DNA of 64,000 nucleotides from the NCBI GenBank assembly GCA_945947575.1, contig CAMEYM010000017.1, positions 1-64,000 of the forward strand, written 5' to 3'. The notes below the pieces were generated by a model. That model ran no database searches. It was given only the letters and a program-made list of their open reading frames with translations, and was not told the DNA's origin. The translations under genes were made by a program, and so were the position numbers. This DNA is from Rhizobium sp. Q54 (GTDB taxonomy: Bacteria > Pseudomonadota > Alphaproteobacteria > UBA2966 > CAIVPW01). Shown one piece after another: positions 46,252 through 52,778 of this stretch (its first letter is position 1; the number at the start of each line of letters is the position of its first letter).

Positions 46252-46725
46252 ATGGCAGCGCGCATTCGCCGCATCGTCCTCGCGCTCGGAGTCTTGTTCG
46301 CCGCGCCGCCTGCGCTGGCCAAGGACGTCACCGCCGAGGTGGTGCGCGAAACCGACCTCGACGAGCGCCTCGTGCTGGCCTGCCGCGCCTATTGCCTCGG
46401 CAACCGGGCCGGCGCCACCCTCAACCAAGTGACGGTGGTCCGCGCAACGGCCAGTACGTTCCGCGTCGCCGGCCGCGCCTCGCTGCGCAACCAGCAGTTC
46501 GTCGAGCCGCAGGTACTGTTTGGAGCTGCGGTCGGCGGCTTCGACCTGTTTCACTACATCGTCACGATCGATGCGGTCGGCACCCTCGACGGGAACACCT
46601 GCAACCTGCGGATCGACCGCGTCCAGGTCCTCGACGACCGTCTCAACCTCACCGATGTCGCCCGCCGCGAAGAGGGCAAGATCTACGCCGTGCCCAACTG
46701 CCAGAGATTTCTGGCCGGACTCTAG
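46252..46725 (+). CDS. Exported protein of unknown function
   Basis: A 157-residue protein with a signal peptide (RRIVLALGVLFAAPPALA). The mature part is mainly beta and has three or four Cys residues (CRAYCLG, TCNLRIDR, NCQRFLAG) that may form disulfides. No family recognised. It starts 53 bases from the divergent M48 gene. Its TAG overlaps the stop of the sensor kinase on the other strand by four bases. Confidence 0.68.
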   Translation: MAARIRRIVLALGVLFAAPPALAKDVTAEVVRETDLDERLVLACRAYCLGNRAGATLNQVTVVRATASTFRVAGRASLRNQQFVEPQVLFGAAVGGFDLFHYIVTIDAVGTLDGNTCNLRIDRVQVLDDRLNLTDVARREEGKIYAVPNCQRFLAGL

Positions 46726-48050
46726 ACCGGCAGCCGCAGCTGGGCGCGCAGGCCGCCCATGGGTGCGGTGTCGAGGATGATGTCGCCGCCGTGGCTGCGC
46801 ACCACGTCGCGGGCGATGGCGAGGCCAAGCCCCAATCCGCTCGCCGAGCGCGGCCGGGTCTCGTCGAGGCGGCGGTAGGGCTGGAACACCACCTCGCGTT
46901 TCTCGGGCGGGATGCCGGGGCCGTCGTCGTCCACCAGGATCTCGATGGTGTTGCCGACGCGCGCCGCGCTGATGGCGATGCGGCTCGCGTACTGCCGCGC
47001 GTTGTCCACCAGGTTGGTCATGCAGCGCAGGAATGCGTTGGGATGCAGCGGCACGACCAGGTTGCCGCTGGTGGCTAGCTCGACCCGCGCGCCCTGCCGG
47101 CGCGCGTTGTTGACGACCTGGTTCAGCAGGCGCGGCAGGTCGGTCTCCACCGCCACCTCGGTGTCCTGGTTGCGGGCGAAGGCGAGGTAGCCGTTGACCA
47201 TCGCCTCCATCTCGTCCACGTCGGACTTGAGATTCGCGGTCGATGGCGACTCGGACAGCATGGCGATCTGCAGGCGCATACGCGTCAGCGGCGTGCGCAG
47301 GTCGTGGGAGACTCCGGCGAGCATTTCGGTGCGCTGGGCGACGAAGCGGCGCAGGCGCCCGCGCATGGTGTTAAACGCCGCCGCCGCCTGGCGCACCTCG
47401 ACCGCGCCCCAGCCCTTGAAGTCGGCGACGTCGCGGCCCTTGCCGAACGCGTCGGCGGCTTCCGCCAACCGGCGGATGGGCCGGATTTGGTTGCGCAGGA
47501 AGATGAGCGCTATCGACAGCAGGATGAGACTCGCGCCGACCATGGCGAGCACGAAGTAGGTCGTGGTGGCGCTGGTCAGACGGTCCTTGTGCACCCGCGC
47601 CACGGCGACGCCGGCCTCGGTCTGCATGCGAATGTCGATGTAGTCACCGCGCTGCGCGGTGTCGATCTGGAAGGGTACGGTCAGGCGTTCGGTCAACGCC
47701 TGGGTCAGGTTCTGGTCGAGGATGCGGTTCTGCACCGCCCGCGCTGGCGCCGGCCGCAGCTCGGCATAGTCCTCGACGAAGAAGGTGATGAGTAGCTGGT
47801 TGCGCACGCTTTCCACGTACGCGTTGAGCTGGCCGGCGCGCTGCAGGTTGTCGAAGTTGGCGAGCAGCACCGCGATATCGCCGGCAACGCCCAGGGCCAG
47901 TCGCCGCGTCACCGAGTCCCAGTGCCGCTCGTAGAAGAACGTCGTCGCGATCATCAGCAGCAGCACCATGGGCGCAACGATGATGACGATGGCGCGCCCC
48001 ATCAGGGTGCGCGGCGAGAGCTTCTTTAGGAAACTGCCTACCGGATCCAT
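46722..48050 (-). CDS. EnvZ-like sensor histidine kinase
   Basis: A 442-residue kinase. A membrane helix near residues 18-38 (IVIIVAPMVLLLMIATTFFY), a periplasmic domain, a second helix at about 165-185, then HAMP. The phosphoacceptor box is AGVSHDLRTPLTRMRLQIAM (residues about 243-262), and ATP-binding motifs DDDGPGIPPEKR and ASGLGLGLAIARDVV follow. It phosphorylates the OmpR-like regulator encoded 24 bases upstream. The order marR - ompR - envZ divergent from ilvE is widespread in alphaproteobacteria. Confidence 0.92.
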   Translation of the reverse strand: MDPVGSFLKKLSPRTLMGRAIVIIVAPMVLLLMIATTFFYERHWDSVTRRLALGVAGDIAVLLANFDNLQRAGQLNAYVESVRNQLLITFFVEDYAELRPAPARAVQNRILDQNLTQALTERLTVPFQIDTAQRGDYIDIRMQTEAGVAVARVHKDRLTSATTTYFVLAMVGASLILLSIALIFLRNQIRPIRRLAEAADAFGKGRDVADFKGWGAVEVRQAAAAFNTMRGRLRRFVAQRTEMLAGVSHDLRTPLTRMRLQIAMLSESPSTANLKSDVDEMEAMVNGYLAFARNQDTEVAVETDLPRLLNQVVNNARRQGARVELATSGNLVVPLHPNAFLRCMTNLVDNARQYASRIAISAARVGNTIEILVDDDGPGIPPEKREVVFQPYRRLDETRPRSASGLGLGLAIARDVVRSHGGDIILDTAPMGGLRAQLRLPV

Positions 48051-48074: not shown

Positions 48075-48770
48075 TCAGTCGGGCCAGAGGACGTAGCCCT
48101 CGCCCCACACGGTCTTGAGGTAGCGCGGGTTGCGTGGATCGGGCTCGATCTTACGGCGCAGGCGGGCGATGTGCACGTCCACGGAACGCTCGGCTACCAT
48201 CGTGCCGCTCGCCGCGACGCCCTGGACGATCGCCATGCGCGACAGGAGCGACCGTCCGTTGCCACCGAGGAGCTTCAGCAGCGCCGTCTCGGCGGTGGTC
48301 AGGTGCACCGGCTCGCCGCCGCGTGTGAGCTCGCCGCGGCCCACGTCGAACGTGTGCTCGCCCAGGCGCAGCACGGGCATCGCTTCGGTCTTCTGCACGC
48401 GGCGCAGCACGGCTGCGGCGCGCAGCAACAGCTCGCGCGGCTCGAATGGCTTGGCCAGATAGTCGTCGGCGCCGGCCTCCAGGCCCGCGATGCGGTCGTC
48501 GGCCTCGCCGCGCGCCGTCAGCAGCAGGATGGGAGTCTGCAGGGTGCCGCGCACCGAACGCGTGAACGAGATGCCGTCCTCGCCCGGCATGGTCACGTCC
48601 AGCACCATCAGATCGAACGCCAACGACGCCATGCGCTCGCGCGCCTCGGCGGCATTACTGGCGGTGGTGACGCGATAGCCGTTCTTGGCGAGGTACTGGC
48701 GCAGCAGGTCGCGCAAGCGCGTATCGTCGTCGACGACCAGAACGTGGGGCTGCAGGGTAGGGTCGTTCAC
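48075..48770 (-). CDS. OmpR-family response regulator (PetR-like)
   Basis: A 231-residue regulator starting at GTG, which overlaps the marR stop (GTGA). The receiver domain has the acidic pair VLVVDDD and the phosphorylated Asp in LMVLDVTMPGEDG (residue about 57), with the switch Thr in LLLTARGEADD and Lys in DDYLAKPFEPREL. A winged-helix DNA-binding domain closes it (ERSVDVHIARLRRKIEPDPR). In Rhodobacter the homologous PetR, with PetP, is required for cytochrome expression; the same role here is inference. Confidence 0.92.
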   Translation of the reverse strand: MNDPTLQPHVLVVDDDTRLRDLLRQYLAKNGYRVTTASNAAEARERMASLAFDLMVLDVTMPGEDGISFTRSVRGTLQTPILLLTARGEADDRIAGLEAGADDYLAKPFEPRELLLRAAAVLRRVQKTEAMPVLRLGEHTFDVGRGELTRGGEPVHLTTAETALLKLLGGNGRSLLSRMAIVQGVAASGTMVAERSVDVHIARLRRKIEPDPRNPRYLKTVWGEGYVLWPD

Positions 48771-49465
48771 TTCCGCCGCGCCGGAGGCGCGCTAGCGCGC
48801 CGAGCGCGCGCCTCGCGTAGGCGGTTTGCGGCGCGCTGCTGGTACGCCTGCTCGAGGGAATCCACCGCGGCGACGAACGAGGCGCGCTTCTCGGTTGCGC
48901 GTTCGGCGAACGCGCTGCGCCGTGCCGCGGCGCGCTCCAGCCGCTCGCGATCGGCGGGCTCGACCATCGCCAGGAGCACTCTCTGCCATCCCTCGATGGC
49001 GTCGGCGCCGACCGCGGCGAAGGCGCGCGACAGGCGTTCCTGCTGGACGGCCGACAAAGTCTGCTCCAGCTCGAATCCGCCGTTGGTGAGAGTGAGCGGC
49101 CTCCGCCGCTGATCGCCCTCGTCGCGTGACTGCTGCACTAGGCGGCGCTCGACCACATCCTTCAGCACGCGCGCCAAGCTCTGCTTGGAGATGCGCAGGA
49201 CGGCGAGCAGCTCGGCCACCGTGATGCCCGGGTTGCGCCCAACGAAGTGCAGGACCCGGTGGTGCGCACGGCCAAGGCCGAGTCGCGCCAGCATCTCGTC
49301 GGGCCCCGCTGTCATGTCGCGATAGGCGAAGAACAAGAGCTCGATTGCCTGGCGCAGGTCCTCCTCGGCAAAGCCGTGACGAGACGTGAAACGGGCCGGC
49401 AAGTCGTTGTCGGGCAGGGGCTCCGTTAGCGCCCAGCGCGTGCGGCCGGTTTTTATGTCAACCAT
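48767..49465 (-). CDS. MarR-family regulator (PetP-like)
   Basis: A 232-residue MarR protein with N- and C-terminal additions to the usual 140-160 residues. The winged helix is GITVAELLAVLRISKQSLAR, then VLKDVVERRLVQQSRDEGDQ and RRRPLTLT (residues about 104-155). The C-terminal 35 residues are very basic and helical. The ATG at 49465 is inside a perfect 21-bp operator, suggesting autorepression. It leads the marR - ompR - envZ operon; PetP proteins of Rhodobacter have this position next to PetR. Confidence 0.88.
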   Translation of the reverse strand: MVDIKTGRTRWALTEPLPDNDLPARFTSRHGFAEEDLRQAIELLFFAYRDMTAGPDEMLARLGLGRAHHRVLHFVGRNPGITVAELLAVLRISKQSLARVLKDVVERRLVQQSRDEGDQRRRPLTLTNGGFELEQTLSAVQQERLSRAFAAVGADAIEGWQRVLLAMVEPADRERLERAAARRSAFAERATEKRASFVAAVDSLEQAYQQRAANRLREARARRASAPPARRK

Positions 49466-49474
49466 GTTGACATA
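49454..49474. promoter_or_regulatory. Perfect 21-bp palindromic operator over the marR start codon
   Basis: TATGTCAAC - CAT - GTTGACATA, nine-base arms with a 3-base centre. The centre CAT is the marR start codon on the other strand. It lies between marR and the divergent ilvE, and the right arm contains TTGACA, a possible ilvE -35 box. This is a textbook MarR site; repression of both genes is inferred. Confidence 0.8.
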
Positions 49475-49501
49475 TCTTATGCGGTTCGGTACGACTCGCA
49501 A
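49474..49501 (-). promoter_or_regulatory. Sigma-70-type promoter candidate for the marR-ompR-envZ operon
   Basis: Read on the minus strand, TTGCGA (49501-49496), a 16-base spacer and TAAGAT (49479-49474) match -35/-10 boxes. Transcription would start about 49467, inside the palindromic operator and only a few bases from the ATG, giving a nearly leaderless message. Confidence 0.5.
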
Positions 49502-49537: not shown

Positions 49538-50425
49538 ATGGCAGCGGTGGCACCGTACGACGACCGCGATGGCGTGATCTGGCAAGACGGGCACATGGTG
49601 CCGTGGCGCGACGCGCGCCTGCACGTCCTGACGCACGGCCTGCACTACGCATCCGGCGTGTTCGAAGGAGAGCGCGCCTACAACGGCCGCATCTTCAAGC
49701 TCGCCGAGCACACCGATCGCTTGTTCGCATCCGCCAAGATCATGGGGTTCTCCCTGCCCTACGACGCCAAGACGCTCAACGACGCGTGCTACGCGGTGAT
49801 GAAGGCGAACGGCATCGTCGACGGCTACGTGCGCCCGGTGGCGTGGCGCGGCTCCGAGATGATGGCGGTGTCCGCGCAGCAGACGCGCATCCATATGGCG
49901 ATCGCCGCGTGGAGTTGGCCGTCGTACTTCGGCCAGGAGGCGCGCCAGAAGGGCATCCGCCTGAAGACAGCGCCGTGGCGCCGTCCCGCGCCCGATACCG
50001 CGCCGGTGCACGCCAAGGCGGCGGGCCTGTACATGATCTGCACCCTGTCCAAGCACGCCGTGGAGCGCGAGGGCTACACCGACGCCATGATGCTCGATTA
50101 CCGCGGACTGGTGGCCGAGGCGACCGGCGCCAACATCTTCTTCGGCATCGACGGTAAGCTGCACACGCCGACGCCGGACTGCTTCCTCAACGGCATCACG
50201 CGCCAGACCGTCATCGCGCTCGCCAAGAAGCGCGGCATGACCGTGGTCGAGCGCGCCATCAAGCCCGAAGAGATCGCCAACGCCACCGAAGCATTCCTCA
50301 CCGGCACCGCCGCCGAGGTGACGCCGATCGGCAGCATCGACCAGCACACCTACCAAGTCGGCCCGATGACCAAGAAGCTCATCGAGGACTACGACGCGCT
50401 GGTGCGCGACAAGGTTCCGGCCTAA
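49538..50425 (+). CDS. ilvE: Branched-chain amino acid aminotransferase
   Basis: A 295-residue class IV PLP enzyme from ATG 49538. THGLHYASGVFEGERAYNGR (residues about 33-52), the catalytic-Lys region YMICTLSKHAVEREG and the class signature EATGANIFFGIDGKLHTPTP are present. It makes or degrades Leu, Ile and Val. Divergent from the MarR-OmpR-EnvZ operon over a 72-base gap with a perfect palindrome, so MarR control is plausible. The neighbourhood is typical for alphaproteobacteria. Confidence 0.94.
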   Translation: MAAVAPYDDRDGVIWQDGHMVPWRDARLHVLTHGLHYASGVFEGERAYNGRIFKLAEHTDRLFASAKIMGFSLPYDAKTLNDACYAVMKANGIVDGYVRPVAWRGSEMMAVSAQQTRIHMAIAAWSWPSYFGQEARQKGIRLKTAPWRRPAPDTAPVHAKAAGLYMICTLSKHAVEREGYTDAMMLDYRGLVAEATGANIFFGIDGKLHTPTPDCFLNGITRQTVIALAKKRGMTVVERAIKPEEIANATEAFLTGTAAEVTPIGSIDQHTYQVGPMTKKLIEDYDALVRDKVPA

Positions 50426-50485: not shown

Positions 50486-51136
50486 GTGGCCGCCGCACCC
50501 CAACGCGAAGTCCGTGCCTTCAAGACCCAGGCCGCGTTCGAGGCGTGGCTGGCGAAGCACCACGCCAAGACCGACAGCATCTGGCTGCGCTACTTCAAGA
50601 AGGCGTCGGGTAAGCCGACCGTCACCTATGCCGAGGCCCTCGATGTGGCCCTCTGCTACGGGTGGATCGACGGCCAGCGCAAGTCGCTCGATGAAGAATC
50701 ATTTGTGCAGCTCTACACGCCGCGCCGTAAGCGCAGCCTGTGGTCGAAGATCAACAAGGGCCATGTCGCTTGCCTGATCGAGTCGGGCCGCATGCAACCG
50801 GCCGGCCTCGCCGAGGTCGAGCGTGCCAAGGCCGACGGCCGCTGGGACCAAGCCTACGGCAACGCCAAGGACATCGAAATCCCGGCAGACTTCCTGCGCG
50901 CCCTCGCCCAGGACAAAAAGGCGAAGGCGTTCTTCGCGACTCTGAACAGGACCAACACGTACGCCATCGCCTGGCGCCTCGCGACCGCCAAGAAGGCGGA
51001 AACCCGCGCCCGGCGCATGGCCGCGATCCTCGCCTGGCTGGCCGCCGGCAAGCCGCCGCACCCGCAAGCGGAGCCGCGGAAGAAAAAAGCAGAAAAGGTT
51101 GTCGAAAAGCGTCCGCGCCGAACGACTAACCGGTGA
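50486..51136 (+). CDS. YdeI/OmpD-associated family protein
   Basis: About 216 residues from GTG 50486; a TTG six bases earlier is possible, and no strong ribosome-binding site decides. SIWLRYFKKASGKPTVTYAE, then ALDVALCYGWIDGQRKSLDE and YTPRRKRSLWSKINK (residues about 35-92) define the YdeI/OmpdA family (DUF1905-linked). The C-terminal tail is Lys/Arg-rich (RKKKAEKVVEKRPRRTTNR). Function is not established. It starts about 60 bases after ilvE and ends 38 bases before the YCII gene. Confidence 0.85.
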   Translation: MAAAPQREVRAFKTQAAFEAWLAKHHAKTDSIWLRYFKKASGKPTVTYAEALDVALCYGWIDGQRKSLDEESFVQLYTPRRKRSLWSKINKGHVACLIESGRMQPAGLAEVERAKADGRWDQAYGNAKDIEIPADFLRALAQDKKAKAFFATLNRTNTYAIAWRLATAKKAETRARRMAAILAWLAAGKPPHPQAEPRKKKAEKVVEKRPRRTTNR

Positions 51137-51174
51137 TCGCGAGCCTGGCGCTCGCGTCATCCGCGGATGAACCT

Positions 51175-51525
51175 ATGCGCTACCTGTGCCTGATCTACGA
51201 CGAGGAAAAGAAACAAGCCGGCATGTCGAAGGCCGATGGCGAGGCGATGATGAGCGAGTACGGCGTCTTTACGGACTCGATCAAGAAGAGCGGCCACTTC
51301 GTCGGCGGGGAGGCGCTGCAGCCGACCAGCTCGGCCACCACCGTGCGCGTCCGCAACGGAAAGATGTCGTCCACCGACGGCCCGTTCGCCGAGACCAAGG
51401 AGCAGCTCGGCGGCTACTACCTGATCAACGCCAAGGATCTCAACGACGCGATGAAGGTGGCCTCCCGCATCCCCGCGGCCAAGTACGGCAGCGTCGAGGT
51501 GCGGCCTATCCTCGAAATCATGTAG
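51175..51525 (+). CDS. YCII/DGPF-domain protein paired with an ECF42 sigma factor
   Basis: A 116-residue protein. MRYLCLIYDEEKK at the start and STDGPFAETKEQLGGYYLI (with the DGPF motif) identify the DGPF branch of the YCII-related family. Genes of this kind sit directly before ECF42 sigma factor genes, as here (17 bases), and belong to that sigma factor's regulon. The biochemical role is unknown. Confidence 0.88.
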   Translation: MRYLCLIYDEEKKQAGMSKADGEAMMSEYGVFTDSIKKSGHFVGGEALQPTSSATTVRVRNGKMSSTDGPFAETKEQLGGYYLINAKDLNDAMKVASRIPAAKYGSVEVRPILEIM

Positions 51526-51542
51526 CCCCAAGGAGTGCGAGC

Positions 51543-52778
51543 GTGGCCGAGGACGCGTCAGCGGAAGTCGCCGCGGTCTACCGCGCCGACAAGGCCCGCG
51601 TCCTCGCCACCCTCATCCGCCTGCTCGGCGACTTCGATCTCGCCGAGGAGGCGCTGCACGACGCCTTCATGGCCGCGGTCGACCAGTGGCCGCGCGACGG
51701 CACTCCCGCCAGTCCGCGCGCCTGGCTGGTGTCCGCCGGCCGCTTCAAGGCCATCGACCGCTTGCGCCGGCGCGCCCGCTTCGACGCGTCGCTCGGCGAG
51801 ATCGCCGATCGTCTCACCGCCGACGCCGGAGCAGCGAGTGAGCAGGACGACATCGAGGACGACCGCCTGCGCCTCGTCTTCACCTGCTGCCATCCGGCGC
51901 TGACACCCGACGCACAGGTGGCGCTGACCCTGCGCGAGATATGCGGCCTCACTACCGAAGAGATCGCGCGCGCGTTCCTGACGCGTCCGCCGACCGTCGC
52001 CCAGCGCATCGTGCGCGCCAAGTCCAAGATCCGCGATGCGCGTATCCCCTACCAGGTGCCCGAGCGCGACGAGCTGCCGCGGCGCCTCGATGCGGTACTC
52101 CACGTCGTCTACCTGGTGTTCAACGAAGGCTACGCCGCGTCATCAGGCGGCTCGCTCACCCGGCTGGACCTGTCCAGCGAGGCGATCCGCCTCGGCCGCC
52201 TGGTGGTGGATCTGCTGCCCGACGCCGAAGCCATCGGATTGCTCGCGCTGATGCTGCTGACCGAATCGCGCCGGCCCGCGCGTACGACAGCGGCCGGCGA
52301 GGTCGTTCTGCTCGATGAGCAGGATCGCTCGTGCTGGGACCACACCCTCATCGCGGAGGGCCGCACCCTGGTCGAGCGCGCTCTCGGCCAGCGCCGCATC
52401 GGGCCGTACGCGCTGCAGGCGGCCATCGCTGCCGTGCATGCCGAGGCCGCTCACGCTGCCGCGACCGACTGGGCGCAGATCGTCGGCCTGTACGACGTGC
52501 TGGTGCTCGCCGATCCCTCGCCGGTGATCGAACTCAATCGAGCTGCCGCCATCGCGATGCGCGACGGAGCCGCCGCCGGCCTCACGCGTCTCGAGCAGTT
52601 GATGGCGCGCGGCGATCTACACGACTACTGCCCGGCCCACGCCACCCGCGCTGAGCTGTGCCGCCGCCTCGGTCGTGTCGCCGATGCGCGCGAGTCCTAC
52701 GAGCGCGCCCTTTTGCTCACCCTGCAGGAGCCGGAGCGGCGCCTCTACGAGCGCCGTCTTGCGGAGTTGCGGAAATAG
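51543..52778 (+). CDS. ECF42-type RNA polymerase sigma factor
   Basis: A 411-residue protein from GTG 51543 with AAGGAG seven bases upstream. Sigma region 2 (RVLATLIRLLGDFDLAEEAL, then HDAFMAAVDQWPRDGTPASP) and region 4 (TLREICGLTTEEIARAFLTR) occupy the first 170 residues. The long C-terminal part is TPR-like, with the conserved LYDVLVLADPSPVIELNRAA, typical of ECF42. No anti-sigma gene is present, as usual for this group; the C-terminal extension is thought to control activity. Confidence 0.92.
   Translation: MAEDASAEVAAVYRADKARVLATLIRLLGDFDLAEEALHDAFMAAVDQWPRDGTPASPRAWLVSAGRFKAIDRLRRRARFDASLGEIADRLTADAGAASEQDDIEDDRLRLVFTCCHPALTPDAQVALTLREICGLTTEEIARAFLTRPPTVAQRIVRAKSKIRDARIPYQVPERDELPRRLDAVLHVVYLVFNEGYAASSGGSLTRLDLSSEAIRLGRLVVDLLPDAEAIGLLALMLLTESRRPARTTAAGEVVLLDEQDRSCWDHTLIAEGRTLVERALGQRRIGPYALQAAIAAVHAEAAHAAATDWAQIVGLYDVLVLADPSPVIELNRAAAIAMRDGAAAGLTRLEQLMARGDLHDYCPAHATRAELCRRLGRVADARESYERALLLTLQEPERRLYERRLAELRK

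Follow-up and report, generated by a model that had tools for sequence, protein, structure and literature searches.

A 21-bp perfect palindrome centred on the start codon of a marR gene is, in our judgement, probably an operator dedicated to the MarR protein that this gene encodes, through which the protein would repress its own mRNA, predicted to be leaderless, and would also control the facing ilvE gene. The palindrome is exact and present in a single copy, it is conserved with the start codon at its dyad, its bases are constrained at the level of DNA, and an aminotransferase gene is its partner in two classes.

The palindrome and the genes around it

In the window (the whole stretch of DNA that was analysed, 64 kb in length), the exact palindrome TATGTCAAC-CAT-GTTGACATA (in full, TATGTCAACCATGTTGACATA) occupies positions 49454-49474 and, as a proposed MarR operator, is assigned to neither strand. 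Two 9-bp arms flank a 3-bp centre, CAT (49463-49465), which is the initiator ATG of marR on the minus strand; the dyad axis, at 49464, falls on the middle base of that codon. The initial annotation of this DNA, which had described exact nine-base arms with the marR start codon as their centre, was correct in this respect. At up to three mismatches the palindrome occurs once in the window, against no match in 100 shuffles, and the genome-wide motif search proposed in the same annotation returned just this one copy in 2.49 Mb at the same tolerance.

The marR gene (48767-49465, minus strand) encodes a protein of 232 aa, labelled PetP-like, that matches our class-wide profile A1 as well as the MarR winged-helix domain (PF12802, MarR_2; E 1.4e-15, 57.6 bits, cutoff 27). 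Downstream, on the same strand, are a gene for an OmpR-family response regulator, which overlaps the marR stop codon (48075-48770; Pfam Response_reg and Trans_reg_C), and one for an EnvZ-like sensor histidine kinase (46722-48050; HAMP, HisKA and HATPase_c). OmpR and EnvZ are the best NCBIfam matches of this pair, with scores below the equivalog cutoffs (226.6 against 331 bits for OmpR, 228.3 against 415 for EnvZ), and by this measure the two proteins are related to OmpR and EnvZ, not equivalogs; the pair resembles EnvZ/OmpR, and perhaps also EssS/EssR of Brucella.

On the plus strand and divergent from marR lies ilvE (49538-50425), with 72 bp between the two start codons. Its product is a class IV branched-chain amino acid aminotransferase (PRK07544 equivalog; Pfam Aminotran_4) that exceeds the equivalog cutoffs of both NF005726 (507.7 against 396 bits) and TIGR01122 (303 against 245.55). 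Further along, 51133-52778 holds a small ORF that we take to be of DGPF type, followed by what is presumably an ECF-sigma-like ORF of the kind often paired with DGPF.

Conservation within the class

The MarR protein was first searched for in 60 relatives together with the window's own genome, and a 28-member profile (A1) was then run on 289 genomes sampled evenly across the class. Of these, 145 gave a match with an E of 1e-30 or better, and 143 of the 145 matched loci, including the window's own, were analysed (G097 and G219 were left out). Taking as a site any stretch between about -250 and +80 relative to the gene start that departs from the two 9-bp arms by at most five mismatches, we find one in 114 of the 143 class loci; dinucleotide shuffles of the same stretches give 0.8%. 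The start codon is exactly central to the best site, and in frame, in 96 of the 143, and there are 28 loci in which the site is kept at up to five mismatches with the start codon elsewhere (L257 counts as non-centred here, despite a centred site 77 nt further along). No site at this tolerance was found in 29 of the 143, of which 22 still have ilvE beside marR. Within the genus, all five members (the window's own genome and four others; L002-L006) have the exact palindrome, with the start codon and TAAGA intact.

After clustering at 70% identity, 49 of 77 representatives are centred, as are 46 of the 80 named loci, a set skewed towards Rhodospirillales because it was ranked by similarity. A phylum-wide sample of 150 genomes contributed 17 new class loci, all with a site at up to four mismatches, five of them centred. 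The initial annotation had staked its reading on conservation of the palindrome among relatives, and conserved it is; its view of an operator-like site belonging to the adjacent MarR and facing ilvE likewise extends to most of the class, a divergent ilvE adjoining marR in 135 of the 143 loci. The ompR gene lies downstream in 126.

Dependence of the operator on the adjacency of ilvE was considered and rejected. Loci with and without the operator number 113 and 22 where ilvE is adjacent and 1 and 7 where it is not (Fisher p 5e-5), but the tree offers just three independent pairs and the association is not significant given relatedness.

The site outside the class and its aminotransferase partner

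The phylum-wide sample of 150 genomes also gave eight MarR loci outside the window's class. The class holding one of these was surveyed in 229 genomes, of which 14 matched with an E of 1e-25 or better, and the outside-class set then comprised 20 loci (L305-L324). The exact core GTCAAY-ATG-NNTGAC stands at the gene start in 19 of the 20, L323 being the exception, and in 16 another GTCA-N7-TGAC stands 41-48 bp upstream. The 20 loci gave no OmpR match; the OmpR-kinase pair is seen in the window's class only and does not belong to the core that is conserved outside it.

The long divergent ORF is an aminotransferase gene in 18 of the 20 loci, 16 of which were identified by Pfam or NCBIfam scans, the other two being 96-97% identical to one of these. 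Some of the partners are IlvE-like and of class IV (L310 and L315 pass the TIGR01122 cutoff); others belong to class I/II and lack meaningful similarity to the first group, the two groups coming from unrelated Pfam families. As both occupy the same slot beside the same regulator, this is the strongest hint that the regulator may serve a transamination step. Of the coupling to branched-chain amino acid metabolism proposed for a putative petP/petR-like system, the metabolic link is strengthened, as the aminotransferase partner recurs in another class, even as a member of an unrelated family; the OmpR-kinase pair is absent from the core there. Of the two loci that differ, L323 has no long divergent ORF. 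The divergent neighbour in L305 (712-1311) is not an aminotransferase and has no NCBIfam match at E 1e-30; judging by eye, we take it to resemble a glutathione S-transferase.

Candidate promoters on either side of the proposed operator

For marR we identify a candidate -10 element, TAAGAT (49474-49479, minus strand), which takes in the last base of the palindrome, and a candidate -35 element, TTGCGA (49496-49501, minus strand), with a 16-nt spacer. For ilvE the corresponding candidates are TTGACA (49467-49472, plus strand), within one operator arm, and TACGAC (49490-49495, plus strand), 17 nt from it. The promoter strings of the initial annotation, TTGCGA-16-TAAGAT for marR and TTGACA for ilvE, are thus present as described. 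A generic sigma-70 scan found no promoters and reported neither the marR nor the ilvE candidate, so the case for them lies in conservation, not in consensus strength. Among 92 centred class loci, TTGC-type tetramers peak at offsets -27/-28. The best -10-like register, whose signal consists in part of operator bases, ends 5 nt before the ATG in these 92 loci and 6 nt before it in the 19 loci outside the class, and in three of the loci (L314, L315 and L318) a perfect TATAAT stands at that register.

In the window TAAGAT ends 8 nt before the A of the marR ATG, and from the position of the -10 element the leader is predicted to be 0-3 nt long. Centred starts are preceded by weak Shine-Dalgarno pairing, with a median of -1.7 kcal/mol and 14 of 92 reaching -4 or lower, compared with that of ilvE starts (median -5.7 kcal/mol; 90 of 133 at -4 or lower), a comparison biased towards ilvE by taking the best of several ilvE starts. 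On the basis of promoter geometry and weak Shine-Dalgarno pairing together, we predict that the marR transcript is leaderless; the nearly leaderless mRNA suggested earlier for the window thus stands as a prediction, with the same type of register in both classes.

Is ilvE under the control of the site at all? It is conceivable, if in our view unlikely, that the operator is real and serves autoregulation only, with ilvE a stable neighbour that it does not control. Consistent with this, ilvE has a housekeeping role of its own, and part of the outside-class loci have the core site, with the same arm asymmetry, in the absence of an adjacent IlvE-type gene. We have for this reason rejected the asymmetry of the arms (GTCAA on the left in 113 of 120 sites, CTGAC on the right in 103 of 120) as evidence for a -35 element of ilvE: the left arm is the same where ilvE is not adjacent, so a TTGAC arm by itself says nothing on ilvE. 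Several observations, however, speak against an uninvolved neighbour. Of 120 ilvE-facing sites in the class, 113 show TTGAC when read in the direction of ilvE, and a TA follows exactly 17 bp on in 87; the ilvE start lies a median of 80 bp from the site; and the divergent slot is filled by an aminotransferase gene in the 18 of 20 loci of another class described above, from two Pfam families unrelated to each other. We therefore favour an operator that would serve both genes.

A different regulator might recognise the site, for instance the OmpR-like protein of the operon rather than MarR. The presence of ompR downstream in most class loci would accord with this, as would a GTAAC box found upstream at a fixed spacing (GTANCA, offset -17, 50 of 120). 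In the window, GTAACATT, upstream of the palindrome, may possibly be a box for the OmpR protein; on the ilvE strand the same stretch reads TGn-TAC, 17 bp from TTGAC, and may instead be an extended -10-like element. Outside the class, however, 19 of 20 loci keep the exact site by marR with no ompR match, and OmpR-type regulators usually bind direct repeats, according to the part of the source available (PMC9275681), whereas a palindrome fits a MarR dimer. We consider recognition by the OmpR-like protein very unlikely, and recognition by MarR remains the preferred reading.

Constraint on the DNA rather than the protein

If the MarR operator extends into the coding sequence, one of its arms is read as the first codons of the gene. 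Across 48 centred and 14 non-centred representatives, GTCA (positions 4-7) and TGAC (positions 15-18) are invariant or nearly so. Among the non-centred representatives the T and G of the central ATG drop to background, and where the ATG has been lost from the site the arms GTCAA/CTGAC are still kept. Codon choice in the coding arm is strongly skewed. All 46 centred genes with Ile4 encode it by ATA, which accounts for 59 of the 765 Ile codons in the remainder of these genes; Ala2 is encoded by GCT in all 49 cases (88 of 1414 elsewhere), and Asp3 by GAC in 87 of 88. As the sites had been picked by matching, the codon test was repeated with gene starts taken from the protein profile alone, omitting any search for sites. 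ATA then encodes Ile4 in 39 of 41 genes, and the nine non-coding bases before the ATG match the left arm at up to two mismatches in 66 of 99, though the test is not wholly independent, profile A1 having been built from palindrome-bearing loci. Covariation between the arms is weak, as expected when most positions never vary; only the pair 3/19 varies much (p about 0.01-0.02, uncorrected over ten pairs and with relatedness ignored). Because the coding arm forces rare codons, selection, as read from these alignments, is acting on the DNA for the operator and not on the protein. In this deeply conserved arrangement the first codons of a protein double as a regulatory DNA site, and it follows that selection on the operator dictates both codon choice and the N-terminal peptide.

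Two explanations for the conserved bases that do without an operator can be set against these data. As RNA, the palindrome could fold into a hairpin, sequester the AUG in the loop and so control translation of marR; for the window the computed fold is a 9-bp stem closed by a 3-nt AUG loop, at -9.2 kcal/mol (z -1.86; 8 of 200 shuffles did equally well). We regard this as extremely unlikely, because a transcript begun at the ATG or close to it would be missing the left arm, mismatches in the outer arms are frequent outside the genus (TAAGTCA...TGACATA), and a hairpin fails to explain the 28 loci with the arms kept and the gene start elsewhere. That the bases are conserved for an N-terminal peptide M-[AVT]-D-[IV]-K needed by the protein, as the D at the third residue of 88 of the 92 centred genes might suggest, is scarcely credible given the near-exclusive use of rare synonymous codons, the conservation of the non-coding left arm, the retention of the arms where the gene starts elsewhere, and the variable linker that follows the tag (19-55 residues from Met to the YRD motif in 87 genes).

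Number of targets per genome

A scan of the 289 genomes with the class-wide pattern at up to two mismatches gave 62 sites in 58 genomes. Assigned by hand, 46 of these are at this marR and 16 elsewhere, the latter equal in number to the 16 sites of a reversed-pattern control. In the window's own genome the relaxed class core, again at up to two mismatches, gave 12 sites against 14 for the reversed control, with a single perfect one, at 49454-49474. A wider regulon is thus rejected at the stringency used, at which there is no excess over controls; looser or diverged sites lie beyond it.

A model for the proposed operator

We propose that a MarR dimer would sit on the GTCA/TGAC half-sites with its dyad axis at the middle base of its own ATG. 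So placed, it would extend over the -10 region, the point where transcription begins and the first four codons of marR, and by covering these MarR would shut off its own operon, which in the window's class would be the marR-ompR-envZ-like operon with its predicted leaderless transcript. The bound dimer would also cover the putative -35 element of the divergent ilvE. A ligand, probably a metabolite of transamination (an amino acid or a 2-keto acid), would release MarR and thereby derepress both sides. A sequence search of solved structures with the MarR protein returned remote MarR chains only (best 42 bits), and no hint as to the ligand comes from them for that reason. The repeated pairing with aminotransferases gives this MarR regulator a concrete class of candidate ligands, and suggests a route by which amino-acid metabolism could feed an EnvZ/OmpR-like system.

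A more general reading may be put forward tentatively, as one that is possible but that we would not yet favour. It holds that a MarR subfamily found in two or more classes of a single phylum has merged operator and initiator codon, such that a single 21-bp element would provide the edge of the -10 region, the point where transcription begins, the start codon of a leaderless message, the first codons and the site of repression; in the window's class it would double as the -35 element of the divergent aminotransferase gene. The regulator would have essentially one target region per genome and would sense a metabolite of transamination; in the window's class it would have been combined with a two-component system of envelope type, and amino-acid status would thereby be linked to signalling through that system. 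Since unrelated partner enzymes occupy the same slot, the regulator would on this reading follow the reaction and not the lineage of the enzyme.

Relation to known systems

MarR-family autorepressors with palindromic operators in divergent intergenic regions are a general paradigm. The system in the window is similar in having a winged-helix MarR domain, a palindrome between divergent genes and a tight local regulon. It differs in that the dyad lies on the regulator's own start codon, with one half of the site in codons 2-4, in the predicted leaderless transcript and in its occurrence in two classes. No description of this operator was found in the full-text literature searched, whose coverage excludes most subscription journals.

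PetR of Rhodobacter capsulatus is reportedly the subject of work by Tokito and Daldal in 1992 and is said to be encoded upstream of the cytochrome bc1 operon. PetP is the name given to the MarR neighbour of PetR. From the sections of the sources available, PetP/PetR likewise includes an alphaproteobacterial response regulator, with a different neighbour: the cytochrome bc1 operon for PetR, ilvE for the system in the window. PetR is described there as a response regulator required for cytochrome bc1 expression in R. capsulatus (PMC9603854). Other literature matches to petP/petR (PMC10141476 and PMC9252766) concern, in the excerpts at hand, an unrelated cyanobacterial pair and were set aside.

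Among two-component systems, the envelope-stress system EssS-EssR of Brucella combines, as the window does, an EnvZ/CpxA-like kinase with an OmpR-type regulator, but the portion of the source available mentions neither MarR nor ilvE (PMC10746171). CenR, of the CenK-CenR system, is likewise of OmpR type and alphaproteobacterial, and regulates the cell envelope; the excerpt available gives its motif as a direct repeat, TGA-N8-TGA (PMC9275681), whereas the site in the window is a palindrome.

Variation in start codon and proposed operator

On a quick tree of 81 sequences the start codon has moved into or out of the site in at least ten changes of state, and in the loci counted these moves came without loss of the arms. 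Because lineages have repeatedly moved the start codon out of the operator, a natural experiment is available. In L182 and L188 the arms are intact and the operator-centred ATG opens an ORF of only seven codons, MADIKNA, also seen in L041/L042; this ORF overlaps with a marR start that lies a few bases further on.

Five loci from Azospirillum and Nitrospirillum (L074, L076, L077, L082 and L084) have no IlvE match beside marR and a poor operator (6-9 mismatches); L074 and L076 have TATGTCTGA...CTGTCCTA in common, which perhaps reflects a shifted specificity. In L174 (the same place as L031 and L043) there are three tandem degenerate copies of the operator, a near-perfect one lacking the ATG about 50 nt upstream and decayed ones down to the present start codon, and in L220 and L222 a second operator-like copy lies 23-25 bp downstream.
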